DNA from: Hydrogenimonas urashimensis
GTDB taxonomy: Bacteria; Campylobacterota; Campylobacteria; Campylobacterales; Hydrogenimonadaceae
Length of the DNA stretch: 64,000 bases
NCBI RefSeq assembly: GCF_016593255.1
Contig: NZ_AP023212.1
Location: forward strand, 496,001 to 560,000
Reading direction: 5' to 3'
Positions 33,951 to 40,527 of this stretch are shown one piece after another. Numbering within the stretch: position 1 is the first letter of the stretch; each line of letters begins with the position of its first letter. Under the pieces are notes generated by a model. That model did not search any database. It was given only the letters and a program-made list of their open reading frames with translations, and was not told the DNA's origin. A program made the translations under genes and the position numbers.

Positions 33951-35123
33951 ATGAACAGTGACAGTTCTGAACCCTCCCCGGGTTTGCAGGATTTTCTCGA
34001 GGATTACTGGGATCTGATCGCCGGTATCCTCTTCGCCTCGCTGGCGCTTCTTTTTCATCTGAACCATTCGGTCTATCTCGCCACTCTCTTTGCGGGACTC
34101 GGCATCGCGGCATTCTCTTTCACCGTCTCCGAAATCGCGGAAATACTCGCCGAAAGACTCCAGGAACCCTATGCCAGTTTCGTGCTCACCTTCAGTGCCG
34201 TTGCCGTCGAGATTCTGCTGCTTTTCATGATTTTGCTCGAAAGCAGCCACGGCGCTCATGCGCTCGAAACGGTCAAAGGCGGTATCATTTCCGCTGTCAT
34301 CGTCGATATGAACGTTCTGTTGGGCATCGCCGTGTTCGTTGGTGGCCTCCGTTTCAAAGAGCAAGAACACAACGAAGACACATCCAGCACCTATACGACC
34401 ATTCTGCTTGTCGCGTCGGTCATGCTGCTGGTCCCGAGCCTTCTGCAGTACTCAAGCAGCAAGGGAGATTCGCTGCCGACGGCAAGCTATATCATCGCCG
34501 GCCTTCTGATGTTCTACTACATCACGATCTTCATTTTCCAGACCAGGACACACATTCACTTCTTCAAAGCCACGGCAAGAAGCCGGATTTTCCGCCTGCG
34601 AAGAAAACGCGCCGAAAAAGAGGGAATGGAGGAAGAGGAGGAAGAGGAGGACTACATATTCGAAAAACTCCCTAACATCGCCAACTTTTTCGTCATCTTC
34701 GGTCTCATCTTTCTCATCGGCATCATTGCGGAGATTTTCGCCAGCGACGGTATGCAGATCGCCAACGATTATGGTATATCCGCCGCCCTCGCCGGTCTGG
34801 TCATCGCCATCATCAGTGTCTCGCCCGAACTATTCACCGCCGTCAAAGCGGCGAAATCCGACCAGATCCAGCGGGTCGTCAATATCGCCATGGGGGCCTC
34901 GACCGTTTCGATCCTGCTGACGGTGCCCATCCTTATGCTTCTGGCCCCCTTCGCCGGTGTCCACCTCAGCCTCGATTTCAATTCACTGCAGATCGGCGCG
35001 CTGATCCTGACCGTCATTCTCGCGTGGAAAACGACCGACAACGGGGAGACCAACTACGTCGAAGGGATCAGCCACCTGATGTTCTTCTTCGCCTACGCCG
35101 TTATCGCGGCCTTCTATCATTAA
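33951..35123 (+). CDS. Ca2+/H+ exchanger-type (CaCA) membrane transporter
   Basis: The 390-residue protein has about eleven transmembrane segments arranged as two inverted halves. Alpha-repeat motifs are FSFTVSEIAEILAERLQEPY and AIISVSPELFTAVKAA, in the style of ChaA/Cax exchangers. An acidic cluster (EEEEEEED) lies in the central cytoplasmic loop. Such proteins extrude Ca2+ (or Na+/K+) in exchange for H+. The start abuts the stop of the preceding gene (33950/33951). A terminator-like hairpin follows. Confidence 0.88.
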   Translation: MNSDSSEPSPGLQDFLEDYWDLIAGILFASLALLFHLNHSVYLATLFAGLGIAAFSFTVSEIAEILAERLQEPYASFVLTFSAVAVEILLLFMILLESSHGAHALETVKGGIISAVIVDMNVLLGIAVFVGGLRFKEQEHNEDTSSTYTTILLVASVMLLVPSLLQYSSSKGDSLPTASYIIAGLLMFYYITIFIFQTRTHIHFFKATARSRIFRLRRKRAEKEGMEEEEEEEDYIFEKLPNIANFFVIFGLIFLIGIIAEIFASDGMQIANDYGISAALAGLVIAIISVSPELFTAVKAAKSDQIQRVVNIAMGASTVSILLTVPILMLLAPFAGVHLSLDFNSLQIGALILTVILAWKTTDNGETNYVEGISHLMFFFAYAVIAAFYH

Positions 35124-35250: not shown

Positions 35251-36345
35251 TTGAAACGCAGAGATTTTCTTAAAACCGCGGCGGTCGCCGGGGCCGCAGC
35301 GACATTTTCGGGATGTACCAGGGAACAGATCGAAGGGAAGAAGAGCTTCAACGTCAGCCGTCAACGCAAAGTGAAACTCAAACTGGCTACCAGCTGGCCG
35401 GCCAACTTCCCGATCATGGGGACGGGTGTCGACCGTTTCGCCGAAAAGGTCAAGACGATGAGCGGCGGATCGCTGGAGATCAAGGTCTACCCCAAAAACA
35501 TCCTCGTCCCCGCCCTCGCCGTCTTCGATGCGACCAGCAGCGGACAGATCGACGCGTTCCATTCGGGCCCCTACTACTGGAAAGGGAAAAATCCCGCCTT
35601 CGCCCTTTTCAGCGGCCTGCCTTTGGGCATGGTCGCATCGGAACTGAAGTGCTGGATGGATTACGGCGGGGGGTACGAGCTGTGGCGGGAACTTTACGCA
35701 AAATACAATCTCCATCCGTTTGTCGGCGGCAACACCGGTGTTCAGATGGGTGGATGGTTCCGTAAACCGATCGAATCGCTTGATGACCTCAAAGGGCTGA
35801 AGATGCGCATTCCTGGCCTAGGAGGCGAGGTCATGGCGAAACTGGGCGTCAATCCCATCCTGCTGCCCGCCGGCGAAATCTACACGTCGCTCGAGCGGGG
35901 CACGATCGATGCGACCGAATGGGTCGGTCCCGCGCTGGATATCCGCATGGGATTTTACAAAGTCGCCCGCTACTACTACACGGGATGGCACGAGCCCGGC
36001 TCGATTCTGGAGTTGACCTTCAACAAGGCCCGCTTCGATTCGCTCGGCGACGAGCACAAAGCCATCATCCGATATGCGGCCGAAGCGATGACGACGGAGA
36101 TGTACCATGAGTTCATGGATGAGAACGCCAAAGCGTTGAAAAAGCTCAAAGAGGTGCATGTAGAGATCAGGGATTTTCCGCCGGATATCATCGAGGCGGC
36201 CAAAAAAGCGCTGATGCAGGTCGTGGAGGAGCAGAGCGCCAAAAGCGGCGATTTCAAACGGGTCTTCGCATCGATGGACGCCTATGAGAGAGTGATCAGG
36301 CCCTGGACCGATATCAGCGAAGCGAAGTATCTCTCTATTCGCTGA
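35251..36345 (+). CDS. TRAP transporter substrate-binding protein (DctP family)
   Basis: The 364-residue protein has a twin-arginine signal (KRRDFLKTAA) followed by FSGC, so it may be a Tat-exported lipoprotein. The DctP fold shows LKLATSWPANFP, RFAEKVKTMSGGSLEIKVYP, the substrate-arginine region LKGLKMRIPGLGGEVM, and TIDATEWVGP. These proteins bind organic or keto acids in the periplasm and feed DctQM permeases; no dctQ or dctM gene is adjacent. TTG 35251 with AGGAG about six nt upstream is the start. The C-terminus overlaps the convergent lipoprotein gene by 11 nt. Confidence 0.92.
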   Translation: MKRRDFLKTAAVAGAAATFSGCTREQIEGKKSFNVSRQRKVKLKLATSWPANFPIMGTGVDRFAEKVKTMSGGSLEIKVYPKNILVPALAVFDATSSGQIDAFHSGPYYWKGKNPAFALFSGLPLGMVASELKCWMDYGGGYELWRELYAKYNLHPFVGGNTGVQMGGWFRKPIESLDDLKGLKMRIPGLGGEVMAKLGVNPILLPAGEIYTSLERGTIDATEWVGPALDIRMGFYKVARYYYTGWHEPGSILELTFNKARFDSLGDEHKAIIRYAAEAMTTEMYHEFMDENAKALKKLKEVHVEIRDFPPDIIEAAKKALMQVVEEQSAKSGDFKRVFASMDAYERVIRPWTDISEAKYLSIR

Positions 36346-37345
36346 AAGGAAACCCCTCTCTCAGCTGTTTCTCCAGCGCCTGCGTGGCTTTCTGCAGCGC
36401 CCGCATACCGCTTTTGGAAGAGGTTCCTGTCACCACGTAGTGTCTCTTTTCGATCACATGCCGGTGTGGCTCCCGCAGTTTCAGATCGATGGATGCACTC
36501 AACATGTGCGTATCGGCGCTGCTGTGATGATCGAGCACTCCTTCCACGAGGATGCAGATGGTGTCTTTTTTCACACCGTCTGAGGTCACGACCGGGTAGT
36601 TCTCTTTTGTCAGGGCTTTTTCGACCGCTTCGGAGAAGAGCTCCAGGGCAGGCGTTTCCGCCGGTTCGATACAGAAACTCAATCGTTTTTTGAGCGACCT
36701 CTCCATACGGTCGAAATAGGGCAAGGCCTCTTCGACACGGCTCGTTATGTTTTTCGAAAACGGTTCGATCGCCGAAGCGACCAGGTAGTCCGGAAGCAAT
36801 TCCCTTATCTTCTTTTTCGCCTCATTCAGGGTCTTGTAGCGGACAAGAATATTCGACGTACGGACCGCATGCCAGCGCTCTTCGATCGGTACCAGTCTGC
36901 GAATCACCTTTCGCTTCAGAGGTTTGGCCAGGTCGGCGCGTCCGGCGCCTACAAGTACAATGTATCCTTCGGGCCTTCTTTCGCTTTTCAACATTTTAAT
37001 ATCTTTGACATGGAATTTTTCCAGTCGTCGATGAAGCGTCCTGGTCTGACTTTCTGTCAAATACCTTTTCACTCTCTTCTCATGAATGCGGCACCGAGCG
37101 AGCAGGTCATCGCTTATCCGTTCGTTCAGATCTTTCCGTGCCGCTTCTGCTGCCGCGTCCGGCGTCGTTCCCCTGCCTATGCCGTAAAAGAGAGTATCGC
37201 TGTTTTCAGGAGGATGGGTATACCACCCGGGCATCGCATCCACCTCTTTTTGCTGCGGTATGTCGGCATCTTTTTGTATCTCCTTCTGACTGCAGCCGGC
37301 CAGGAAGAGAAAAAAGATGAGGGGCCAAAAAAAGATCTTTGTCAT
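36335..37345 (-). CDS. LPP20-like lipoprotein
   Basis: ATG 37345 gives 336 residues with a lipoprotein signal (MTKIFFWPLIFFLFLAGC). The mature N-part holds PGWYTHPPENSDTLFYGIG and then AAAEAARKDLNERIS, close in pattern to the LPP20 family of Helicobacter and relatives (a conserved surface lipoprotein domain). The rest is a basic helical region and a C-terminal domain without a recognised motif. An earlier ATG at 37378 would add 11 residues before the signal. The role is unknown. Confidence 0.75.
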   Translation of the reverse strand: MTKIFFWPLIFFLFLAGCSQKEIQKDADIPQQKEVDAMPGWYTHPPENSDTLFYGIGRGTTPDAAAEAARKDLNERISDDLLARCRIHEKRVKRYLTESQTRTLHRRLEKFHVKDIKMLKSERRPEGYIVLVGAGRADLAKPLKRKVIRRLVPIEERWHAVRTSNILVRYKTLNEAKKKIRELLPDYLVASAIEPFSKNITSRVEEALPYFDRMERSLKKRLSFCIEPAETPALELFSEAVEKALTKENYPVVTSDGVKKDTICILVEGVLDHHSSADTHMLSASIDLKLREPHRHVIEKRHYVVTGTSSKSGMRALQKATQALEKQLREGFPFSE

Positions 37346-37475
37346 GTTTCTGTTATCCGTTATGGAGCATGGTTTCATTCAGCGGGTTTTGCAATATCAT
37401 GTACTACATAATCGACAATAACCAAAAACATGAAAGAGTCTGGAAGAAATTTTTTATATGTCGGGAATGGGTTCC

Positions 37476-38147
37476 TTATCCCTTTTTTTTGTAGGGGATG
37501 ACATCCTGAAGGCCCGCTTTTTCGAACCCTTTGAGCCGAAGCCGGCAACTGTCACACACACCGCACGCCTCCTCCTCGTTCTGGTAGCAGCTCCATGTCA
37601 GCTCCAGTGGAACGCCGTATTCTACTGCGGTTTTTACGATATCCTCTTTTTTCAGATGCACAAGCGGCATGCGTATCTGTATGCGTGTCTGCTCCTTCGT
37701 GCCGAGGTTGATCGCTCTCTCCATCGCTTCGATAAAGGATTCCCTGCAGTCGGGATAGCCGCTGCTGTCCTCCTCCACCACGCCGATGTAGAGCGCTTCG
37801 GCCCCCTCTTTTTCCGCCACGGCGGCGGCAATGCTCAAAAAGATGCCATTGCGGAACGGAACGTAGGTTACGGGAACCCCCTCTTCGATACCGCCGGTGG
37901 GCACATCGATGCTTCTGTCCGTCAGTGCCGACGCTCCGATCTGCTCGAAAAAAGGAAGATCGATGAGATAACGGTTCACGACGCCCATCCTGTCGCAGAT
38001 CGCCTCGAACGCCCTGCGTTCCCGCCTCTGTGTGCGCTGTCTGTAATCAAAATGCAGCGCCACGATCTCATACCCCTCCGCCCTGGCAATATAGGCGGCT
38101 GTCGTCGAATCCATTCCGCCACTCAATATCACTACCGCTCTTTTCAT
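37476..38147 (-). CDS. queC: 7-cyano-7-deazaguanine synthase
   Basis: QueC turns 7-carboxy-7-deazaguanine into preQ0, using ATP and ammonia, for queuosine in tRNA. The 223-residue protein has the PP-loop LSGGMDSTTAAYIA, FRNGIFLSIAAAVAE, and the C-terminal zinc-binding cysteines in WSCYQNEEEACGVCDSC. The gene is divergent from the Clp1-like gene and stands alone on the minus strand. Confidence 0.96.
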   Translation of the reverse strand: MKRAVVILSGGMDSTTAAYIARAEGYEIVALHFDYRQRTQRRERRAFEAICDRMGVVNRYLIDLPFFEQIGASALTDRSIDVPTGGIEEGVPVTYVPFRNGIFLSIAAAVAEKEGAEALYIGVVEEDSSGYPDCRESFIEAMERAINLGTKEQTRIQIRMPLVHLKKEDIVKTAVEYGVPLELTWSCYQNEEEACGVCDSCRLRLKGFEKAGLQDVIPYKKKG

Positions 38148-38244
38148 TGGAGATCCCGTATTTTTTATTCTTATTGCAATTTTACAATCGCAAGACTTTC
38201 ATTATCCAAAACTTCACGGCATACCTGTGGTACAATCGATCATT

Positions 38245-39111
38245 ATGGCAAATGAAACGACAACCCTCGACACTCCCTCGGCCTGGCTGCGTCTGGATGA
38301 AAAACTATTAAGCGGCATCGTCATGGTCATTGGAGGCACCGATTCGGGCAAAAGCACCTTCGTGCGCCATTTTGCGGAAAGACTTCGCGGCGAACGTCTG
38401 GTCGCGGTGATCGACGGGGATATCGGACAGACGGCGCTGGGACCGCCAACGACACAGACACTCAGCCTCTGCTCGCCGGATTTTGATTTCGTATGCGTGG
38501 CAAGATGGTTCGTAGGCGGCATTTCGCCCGCAGGGCACCGTGAGCAGACCCTGGTGGGGCTGGAGCGTCTCGTACAAAAAGCTAAAAAGTCGGGGGCGCG
38601 CACGATACTGATCGACACGACAGGTTTCATTTCGCCCGATGCCGGCGGCCATACGCTCAAATGGAGCAAATTCGATCTGTTGCGGCCCGCCACTCTCATC
38701 GCACTGAAAAAGGGCGAAGAGCTTGAGCCCATTCTTTCTCCCTGGCGCAAAAGCGGCCGTTTTTCGATGATTGAACTGCCACTTTCCAACAAGGTCCAAA
38801 AGATCTCCCCCGCCCGGCGCAAAAGAATACGCCAAGATAATTTCCGCCGCTATTTCCAAGACGCCACAACGATCTCTGTCTCTTTGGAAACGACGGGCGT
38901 GGTGGGACGGTGGCCCCTGCGAAAAATGCAGCTTGTGGGTTTGATCGACAACGAGGGGTTTTTGCTGAGGCTTGGCATCGTGGAGAGAGTGGAGGATGAG
39001 AAAATTTTCGTCAAAGCGCCCCTTTTCGATCCAAAGGCTCTTGACATGGTGCGCACGGGATCGCTTCTGCTCGACGAAAAAGCGGGCTGGATCGAACAAA
39101 CGATTCGCTGA
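38245..39111 (+). CDS. Clp1/Grc3-like P-loop polynucleotide kinase (putative)
   Basis: From ATG 38245 the 288-residue protein has Walker A GGTDSGKST at residues 30-38. The Clp1/Grc3 lid and catalytic-type motif VIDGDIGQTALGPPTT lies near 58-73, followed by LIDTTGFISPDAGG and a C-terminal beta region (about 200-285). Clp1/Grc3/Nol9 proteins phosphorylate 5'-OH RNA ends in eukaryotes and archaea; bacterial members are rarer and of unknown role. A GTG at 38227 is an alternative start, but it overlaps a TACAAT -10-like box (38231-38236). It is followed by ybeY, an RNA-maturation gene. Confidence 0.75.
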   Translation: MANETTTLDTPSAWLRLDEKLLSGIVMVIGGTDSGKSTFVRHFAERLRGERLVAVIDGDIGQTALGPPTTQTLSLCSPDFDFVCVARWFVGGISPAGHREQTLVGLERLVQKAKKSGARTILIDTTGFISPDAGGHTLKWSKFDLLRPATLIALKKGEELEPILSPWRKSGRFSMIELPLSNKVQKISPARRKRIRQDNFRRYFQDATTISVSLETTGVVGRWPLRKMQLVGLIDNEGFLLRLGIVERVEDEKIFVKAPLFDPKALDMVRTGSLLLDEKAGWIEQTIR

Positions 39112-39140
39112 ACGATATCCCGTAAGATCGCCATCGCCTT

Positions 39141-39160
39141 TTTATCGATTTTTCGATAAA
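39141..39160. repeat. perfect 8-bp inverted repeat before ybeY
   Basis: TTTATCGA and TCGATAAA (39141-39148 and 39153-39160) flank a TTTT loop. It lies between the Clp1-like gene and ybeY and may be a weak terminator. GATAAAAT at its right edge could also act as a -10 box for ybeY. Confidence 0.5.
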
Positions 39161-39169
39161 ATCGGCCCC

Positions 39170-39595
39170 ATGATAGAGATTACCAACGAAACCAACTACC
39201 GGCCCAATACCAATCTGCTCGAAACGATCGCGGCGGAACTGACCGACCGCGACATCGAACTCGTTTTGACTAACAACAGCAGAATCCGGGAGATGAACCG
39301 CCTGCAGCGGGGAGTCGACGCTCCGACCGACGTGCTCAGTTTCCCGCTGGAAAAGGTTCCCTTCGCGCCCCTCGGCGAGATCGTCATCAGTGTCGAATAC
39401 GCCGCCGACAAGGCGAGCCAGTACGGAAACTCTCTTGACGACGAGATCGCCCTGCTCTTTATCCACGGGCTGCTCCACCTGCTGGGCTACGACCATGAGA
39501 CCGACAATGGCCAAATGCGCCGGAAAGAGGAGGAGCTGATCCGCCGTTTCGGTTTACCCGAAAGCCTCATCGTCCGTACGGAGGGCAGCCAATGA
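39170..39595 (+). CDS. ybeY: endoribonuclease YbeY
   Basis: YbeY is a zinc enzyme of 16S rRNA maturation and ribosome quality control. The 141-residue protein has the metal motif FIHGLLHLLGYDHETD (three His), preceded by DVLSFPLE and GEIVIS. The ATG at 39170 is the family-typical start; an upstream extension of the frame lies inside the Clp1-like gene. The stop overlaps the exchanger ATG (ATGA). Confidence 0.97.
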   Translation: MIEITNETNYRPNTNLLETIAAELTDRDIELVLTNNSRIREMNRLQRGVDAPTDVLSFPLEKVPFAPLGEIVISVEYAADKASQYGNSLDDEIALLFIHGLLHLLGYDHETDNGQMRRKEEELIRRFGLPESLIVRTEGSQ

Positions 39596-40527
39596 TCGAT
39601 TTCGTGATCTTCGTCGTCAGCATGGGCGCTCTGATATGGGGAGCCGAATTCATCATCAAAGAGTCCGAGCGCATCGCTTTTCACCATAACATCAGCGAAT
39701 TCATCATCGGCGCGACACTGATCGCCCTGGGGACCAGCCTGCCCGAAATGGCGGCCAGTGTCGCCGCGAGCATCAAGGGGCAGAGCGATATGGCCGTCGC
39801 CAACGTCCTGGGTTCGAACATCATGAATATCGCACTGGTGCTCGGACTTGTCTTTCTGATCGCATCACGCATCGCGCCCCATCGCGATCTCTTCTTCAAG
39901 GACAGCGCGTGGCTTCTTTTTCCTGTCATCATCTTCCCGCTGATGATTCTCGACGGTTCCCTCTCCCGCATCGACGGTTTTTTGCTATTTGCGATGATGG
40001 GAGCCTACGTGATGTTCCTGATCCAGTCAGGCAGTGAGGAGCAACTGGCCGAATTGGACGTGGAGATGAAAAAAGAGGTGTTCAACTGGCCCAAAACCAT
40101 CGCTCTGCTGGCAGCAGGCTTTGTTCTGGTCGTTGTCGGCGCGGATTACGCCATCGAGAGTGCCGCCAACATCGCCAGGGCGTTCGGAATCAGCGAATGG
40201 ATCATCGGTCTGCTTCTCATCGCCTTCGGGACCAGCCTTCCGGAACTGGTCGTCAGCATCAAGGCGGCCCGTCAGGGCAAAGCCGACATGAGCATCGGAA
40301 ACATCATCGGCTCCAATATGGCCAACACGTCCGTCGTGCTCGGCTCCGCCGCTATGACACGACCCCTTTCCATCGACCTTGTCAACAGCTCTTTCGATGT
40401 TTTCCTGATGATCGGCGTCACATTGATGCTCGTCTTCATCACCGCCAACAGACTCTACGCCAAAGCCTCCGGCGTCATGCTGCTCATCGTACTGGCCATT
40501 TTCCTGCAGCATGCGCTGAGCGCATAG
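39592..40527 (+). CDS. Na+/Ca2+ (or K+-dependent) exchanger, YrbG type
   Basis: The 311-residue protein has ten predicted helices in two inverted halves. The alpha motifs are IGATLIALGTSLPEMAASVAA and LLLIAFGTSLPELVVSIKAA, each followed by NVLGSNIMNIA and NIIGSNMANTS. This is the standard CaCA YrbG pattern. It probably exports Ca2+ in exchange for Na+. It is coupled to ybeY. A 234-nt interval downstream (40528-40761) contains no gene I can support. Confidence 0.95.
   Translation: MIDFVIFVVSMGALIWGAEFIIKESERIAFHHNISEFIIGATLIALGTSLPEMAASVAASIKGQSDMAVANVLGSNIMNIALVLGLVFLIASRIAPHRDLFFKDSAWLLFPVIIFPLMILDGSLSRIDGFLLFAMMGAYVMFLIQSGSEEQLAELDVEMKKEVFNWPKTIALLAAGFVLVVVGADYAIESAANIARAFGISEWIIGLLLIAFGTSLPELVVSIKAARQGKADMSIGNIIGSNMANTSVVLGSAAMTRPLSIDLVNSSFDVFLMIGVTLMLVFITANRLYAKASGVMLLIVLAIFLQHALSA

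Follow-up and report, generated by a model that had tools for sequence, protein, structure and literature searches.

The open reading frame at positions 38245-39111 of the forward strand (ATG at 38245, stop at 39111, 288 aa) of a 64,000-nucleotide stretch of Hydrogenimonas urashimensis DNA, here called the window, raises the question of whether this bacterium possesses a kinase for RNA 5′-ends, how the gene was obtained and what it may be used for. An in-frame GTG is present at 38227, upstream of this ATG. In the preliminary description of the locus the product had been considered a Clp1/Grc3-like polynucleotide kinase with a conceivable role in rRNA processing, and an HMM search, a structure prediction for comparison with Nol9 and a search for RNA ligases had been proposed. 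The reading preferred here, with a probability of roughly 0.8, combines membership in the Clp1/Grc3 family with a 5′-hydroxyl kinase activity and a lateral origin of the gene, of which we infer the activity and the donor. Family, motifs, fold, selection and patchy presence were established by computation.

For the assignment to a family, the product was compared with profile collections and solved structures. The Pfam family CLP1_P was matched at residues 30-205 with an E-value of 2.7e-28 and 99.5 bits (cut-off 26.6), far above cobW, the sole other Pfam family above its cut-off (22.2 bits versus 20.7), and none of the NCBIfam models was matched at its cut-off. In a profile search of the organism's own genome of 2,297,889 bases the open reading frame was the one full-length CLP1_P match; a second match covered only profile positions 6-38 and reached 22.7 bits. 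The top choice of phmmer for the product was Nol9 with an E-value of merely 0.051, and the best solved structures for a profile built from 21 relatives were human Clp1 (E 1e-27), C. elegans Clp1, Nol9 and Grc3. An AlphaFold2 model of the product (mean pLDDT 90.2, pTM 0.90) had Clp1, Grc3 or Nol9 entries as its first 23 Foldseek matches. In VIA-align, human Clp1 was matched with Z 27.3 over 270 residues and ranks 1-16 were all occupied by Clp1, Grc3 and Nol9 chains (Z 27.3-18.4), so that the structure prediction proposed for comparison with Nol9 returned the fold of this family. The next family, the SRP/FtsY GTPases, reached a best Z of 12.6 against 27.3 for Clp1, and an identity as an SRP/FtsY or GPN-type GTPase was rejected. 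The model comprises the Clp1 fold with kinase domain and C-terminal domain; its residues 1-277 align with residues 55-422 of human Clp1, and the C-terminal beta domain corresponds to residues 206-288 (38860-39108, forward strand). The available part of PMC6777427 describes bacterial Clp1 as devoid of the archaeal C-terminal domain, whereas the model obtained here covers the Clp1 C-terminal domain. As the P-loop already begins at residue 30, a eukaryotic N-terminal domain cannot be accommodated, and with this domain absent the eukaryotic Clp1 and Nol9 subfamilies were rejected.

The active-site motifs, named as in the available parts of PMC6777427 and PMC10598085, were located in an alignment of 74 rows, which was derived from 82 stretches with a Clp1 open reading frame (81 loci and the window) by leaving out 8 duplicate, cut or aberrant ones. 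All of the motifs lie on the forward strand. The Walker A motif or P-loop, GGTDSGKST (residues 30-38, 38332-38358), has G30, G35 and K36 in 74/74 rows and D33 in 71/74, and the Walker B motif DGDIGQ (residues 57-62, 38413-38430) has D59, G61 and Q62 in every row and D57 in 73 of the 74. The clasp DTTGF (residues 124-128, 38614-38628), located also by profile alignment with 8hmy and 4ohv, shows G127 in all 74 rows and T125 in 71, the other 3 having S; the clasp of human Clp1 is NTCGW, and its conserved W is F in the product. The RxxxR motif (38818-38832) supplies the arginines of the lid, R192 in 74/74 and R196 in 73/74 rows, and in the profile alignment both coincide with the lid arginines of the human and C. 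elegans Clp1 proteins. The product carries all scored motif residues, with Walker A, Walker B (DxDxGQ), clasp and lid intact. Both segments that had initially been read as Clp1-type motifs, GGTDSGKST and DGDIGQTALGPPTT, were located at residues 30-38 and 57-70, respectively, and the initial reading of the product as a Clp1/Grc3-like polynucleotide kinase is borne out by the CLP1_P match, which lies far above that of cobW, by the motifs and by the predicted fold. The product very probably phosphorylates the 5′-end of RNA. By analogy with the solved members of the Clp1 family, ATP would be bound at the P-loop, an aspartate of DxDxGQ together with a metal would ready the 5′-hydroxyl, and the phosphate would be carried across by the lid arginines.

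No report of a Clp1 protein or a polynucleotide kinase from Hydrogenimonas was found in the literature among the matches listed. To our knowledge, bacteria have neither the tRNA-splicing endonuclease nor the polyadenylation partners of Clp1. Human and C. elegans Clp1 (8hmy and 4ohv series) match the model with Z 27.3-25.9 over 270-273 residues at 17-18% identity and with aligned motif residues, but have the N-terminal domain for which the product offers no room. Grc3 and Nol9 match it with Z 24.9-18.4 and have large N- and C-terminal domains, both of which are missing here. The archaeal Clp1 proteins of Thermococcus and Bathyarchaeota show the same domain order, but are longer (345-438 aa versus 288 aa) and contain extra sequence; the product is 31% identical to row L035 from Thermococcus and 23-29% identical to the remaining archaeal rows. 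Bacterial Clp1 kinases are rare but already on record in the available parts of PMC6777427 and PMC10598085, and the Hydrogenimonas member is new. It had been stated beforehand that the bacterial members are little studied, which is fair except that kinase activity has already been demonstrated for Ts-Clp1 of Thermus scotoductus (E8PQM6): in the accessible text of PMC6777427 this enzyme phosphorylates single-stranded RNA in vitro and prefers RNA, while single-stranded DNA is phosphorylated at higher enzyme amounts. Like Ts-Clp1 as described there, the Hydrogenimonas product is bacterial and short and has a CLP1_P domain with the same motifs; Ts-Clp1 belongs to another phylum and, according to the same source, has one lid arginine replaced by lysine, whereas the product keeps both.

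In order to assess selection and descent, the gene was compared with its counterpart in genome G013. Values of dN 0.183 and dS 1.14 were obtained over 198 codons, and with a dN/dS of about 0.16 the gene is in use; for queC, the same pair of genomes gave dN 0.088 and dS 0.97. On these rates clp1 is under purifying selection, yet drifts faster than its neighbor queC, and the similar dS of the two genes fits inheritance of the clp1-queC stretch by both genomes from a common ancestor. The gene was found in 3 of 18 Hydrogenimonas genomes and full queC in 16 of 18. Among the 16 genomes with queC, clp1 lies beside queC in 3 (one of these contigs ends within clp1), queC and ybeY are separated by an empty gap of 56-236 bases in 11, queC is located elsewhere in G005, and in G011 the gap holds a transposase-like open reading frame. 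This frame (L066, 2266-3018) appears to be of the REP type, an identity assigned by eye, and the queC-ybeY gap seems open to insertions. With a threshold of E ≤ 1e-8, a match to clp1 was found in 2 of 397 sampled genomes of the Campylobacterota, namely the own genome and G281. The phylum of genome G420 gave a match in 60 of 395 genomes, which far exceeds the 14 of 1,543 complete bacterial genomes with Clp1 reported in 2019 in the available part of PMC6777427.

In the tree of the 74 rows, the three Hydrogenimonas Clp1 proteins form one clade (100/99) within a nine-row group that includes six rows from the phylum of G420 (100/96). On the same tree G281 stands apart on a long branch and the archaeal rows fall elsewhere, with weak support for the deep branches (63/26 at the midpoint). 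Because G281 branches apart from the Hydrogenimonas rows, the Campylobacterota probably gained clp1 at least twice, and the tree favors an exchange between bacterial phyla more than direct acquisition from archaea. Since the gene is rare in the Campylobacterota and its nearest relatives belong to another phylum, horizontal transfer, from a donor that we infer, is the most likely origin of clp1 in Hydrogenimonas: a bacterium from a different phylum would have supplied the gene, which would have landed between the divergent queC and ybeY. In a tree of queC and ybeY from Hydrogenimonas, which is weak, the three carriers do not form one clade (3 changes), and this tree does not distinguish one gain followed by losses from repeated gains. 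Phages, plasmids and viral contigs were searched with the product and gave no match, and carriage by such mobile elements was rejected.

The neighbors named beforehand were confirmed by NCBIfam models: queC (37476-38147, reverse strand) matches TIGR00364 with E 1.3e-63 and is divergent from clp1, and ybeY (39170-39595, forward strand) matches TIGR00043 with E 9.4e-35 and lies downstream. A putative -10 element, TACAAT, was read from the sequence at 38231-38236 of the forward strand, 8 nt before the clp1 ATG; TACAAT is present near the start in G013 too, and TAGAAT in G004. Upstream of ybeY a box, TTTTATC...GATAAAATCGGCCCC (39140-39169, forward strand), ends adjoining the ATG, and its core TA(A/G)AATC precedes ybeY in 14/14 loci read, with and without clp1. 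Because this box is kept in carriers and non-carriers, clp1 appears to lie outside the presumed native promoter of ybeY. In all 14 of these loci the -10-like box is located about 7 bases from the ybeY ATG and leaves no room for a Shine-Dalgarno sequence, and ybeY may be expressed from a leaderless mRNA across Hydrogenimonas. Two sodium/calcium exchanger genes (PF01699) are found within 7 kb, at 33951-35123 and at 39592-40527, the latter overlapping the end of ybeY. A lipoprotein-like gene at 36335-37378, with an LPP20 match below threshold, changes fast (29-41% identity in relatives, compared with 86-89% for the adjacent queC).

Outside Hydrogenimonas, queC was found near clp1 in the two loci L160 and L164 of the G420 phylum, in which queC-queE is divergent from nfo-clp1; nfo, encoding endonuclease IV, directly precedes clp1 on the same strand, and the two genes are separated by a single base in L160 and overlap in L164. 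The lineage of both loci stands next to Hydrogenimonas on the Clp1 tree with a support that is not firm (97/44). No queC was detected within the fetched flank of the other clp1 loci outside Hydrogenimonas, nor in the flanks, up to 20 kb long, that surround the gene in G795, G445 and G647 (L247-L251). The open reading frames within about 6 kb of clp1 were clustered for G281, 59 loci from the G420 phylum and named loci of bacteria and archaea, and no conserved partner emerged. These frames were called mechanically and some of the listed neighbors are spurious; the families common to most loci reflect synteny of archaeal lineages, and in bacteria no family occurred in more than 9 loci, at varying positions.

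RNA ligases and sources of 5′-hydroxyl ends were searched for as possible counterparts of the kinase. RtcB was found in none of the 18 Hydrogenimonas genomes (controls positive in 9/14), and a PF09414 RNA ligase in none of the own genome, G004, G013 and G281 (controls positive in 6/14); PF09511 gave no match, its controls being silent as well, and the proposed ligase check is answered in the negative for RtcB and PF09414 in these genomes. In the G420 phylum, RtcB was present in 36 of 38 clp1 carriers (of 60) and in 33 of 38 non-carriers (of 335), and an association with clp1 was rejected as showing no clear link. An in-frame TGA at the conserved cysteine (GYDIN*GVR) was observed in 11 of 50 RtcB genes of this phylum (L198, L201, L207, L213, L215, L226, L235 and L243-L246), the other 39 having C; these look like selenocysteine RtcB proteins, of which an engineered form is described in the literature.

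MazF-type toxins make RNA with 5′-hydroxyl ends. A positive link between MazF and clp1 was expected and the reverse was found. MazF/PemK occurred in 10 of 30 clp1 carriers (of 60) versus 23 of 30 non-carriers (of 335) of the G420 phylum (Fisher p 0.0016) and in 0/3 carriers versus 11/15 non-carriers of Hydrogenimonas (p 0.043). The deficit persisted after adjustment for genome size (z -2.9); after adjustment for relatedness, with a tree of RtcB covering 50 of the 60 genomes (10 without long-type RtcB were left out), 9 independent pairs gave a mean of 5.3 opposite and 0.8 in the same way (median p 0.125). MazF is rarer with clp1 in two phyla, which is only a trend once kinship is considered. 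This rarity opposes a simple story of supply and demand.

Since a probable 5′-hydroxyl kinase is present and neither RtcB nor a PF09414 ligase was found, the simplest role for the product would be the licensing of RNA decay, which is put forward tentatively, at less than even odds and partly by analogy: the kinase would work without a dedicated ligase and convert RNA fragments with 5′-hydroxyl ends into 5′-phosphorylated RNA that is readily degraded by RNase J. The own genome encodes RNase J (675.5 bits), and a precedent is given in the available part of PMC10942766, in which Grc3 prepares RNA for Rat1 in yeast. However, RNase J1 can start on 5′-hydroxyl RNA without a kinase according to the accessible text of PMC3997798, so licensing may be unneeded. 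The main rival to this RNA-decay role is a kinase that heals DNA ends, restoring 5′-phosphates at breaks for DNA ligase alongside base-excision repair; the position of clp1 directly behind the DNA-repair gene nfo in L160 and L164 and the activity of Ts-Clp1 on single-stranded DNA at higher enzyme amounts (PMC6777427, available part) speak for it, but Ts-Clp1 prefers RNA in the same source and nfo adjoins clp1 in just these two of the loci searched and in none of Hydrogenimonas, which makes this function unlikely. A kinase of the Clp1 kind is used in classical 5′-phosphate ligation pathways, and the product could provide the healing half of RNA repair on broken RNA such as tRNA, together with an unrecognized ligase that the PF09511 search, silent for its controls too, could have let pass. 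Such a repair function is decidedly unlikely in view of the absence of RtcB in 18/18 Hydrogenimonas genomes and of PF09414 in the own genome, G004, G013 and G281; in the G420 phylum, PF09414 is no commoner in clp1 carriers (3/38) than in non-carriers (2/38). It is improbable that the product is a P-loop protein devoid of kinase activity, either a GTPase, as bacterial members are annotated (PMC6777427, available part), or a scaffold as yeast Clp1 is: the product has F in place of the tryptophan of the clasp and cobW scores narrowly above its cut-off, but every motif residue kept in active members is present, CLP1_P scores far above cobW, and T125-G127 of the clasp is intact, unlike in inactive Clp1 proteins, in which, as far as described in the available part of PMC10598085, changes affect especially the clasp.

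The neighboring genes suggest further functions, which are weighed here against RNA decay as the preferred role. A queC-linked function in the metabolism of queuosine or of tRNA would agree with the divergent arrangement of clp1 and queC in 3/3 Hydrogenimonas carriers and in the loci L160 and L164 from a different phylum, but outside Hydrogenimonas the arrangement was seen in these two loci of a single lineage among those searched, and it is a lead noticed post hoc, with luck or shared descent as possible causes; such a link is highly improbable. More speculative still is a traveling end-healing unit that would have moved between phyla with queC and would heal 5′-hydroxyl ends made by nucleases, for example in queuosine tRNAs or at AP-site breaks, queC being a functional part of it and not a landing place. 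The least probable function is that of a YbeY partner in 16S rRNA 3′-end maturation. Although ybeY lies on the same strand 58 bases downstream of clp1 and adjoins it in G004 too, queC directly neighbors ybeY, with no clp1, in 11/18 Hydrogenimonas genomes, ybeY retains its own upstream box, no ybeY was present in the fetched flank of any clp1 locus searched outside Hydrogenimonas, and YbeY works on the 3′-end whereas the kinase works on the 5′-end. The earlier suggestion that the kinase is linked to ybeY and to the processing of rRNA is not sustained: queC-ybeY is the ordinary layout in Hydrogenimonas, with clp1 as an extra gene in 3/18 genomes, ybeY has a separate box, and in the flanks fetched from other genera clp1 was not accompanied by ybeY. 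The existence of close Hydrogenimonas genomes with and without clp1 at one site makes the role of this bacterial Clp1 protein testable by deletion or by comparison.
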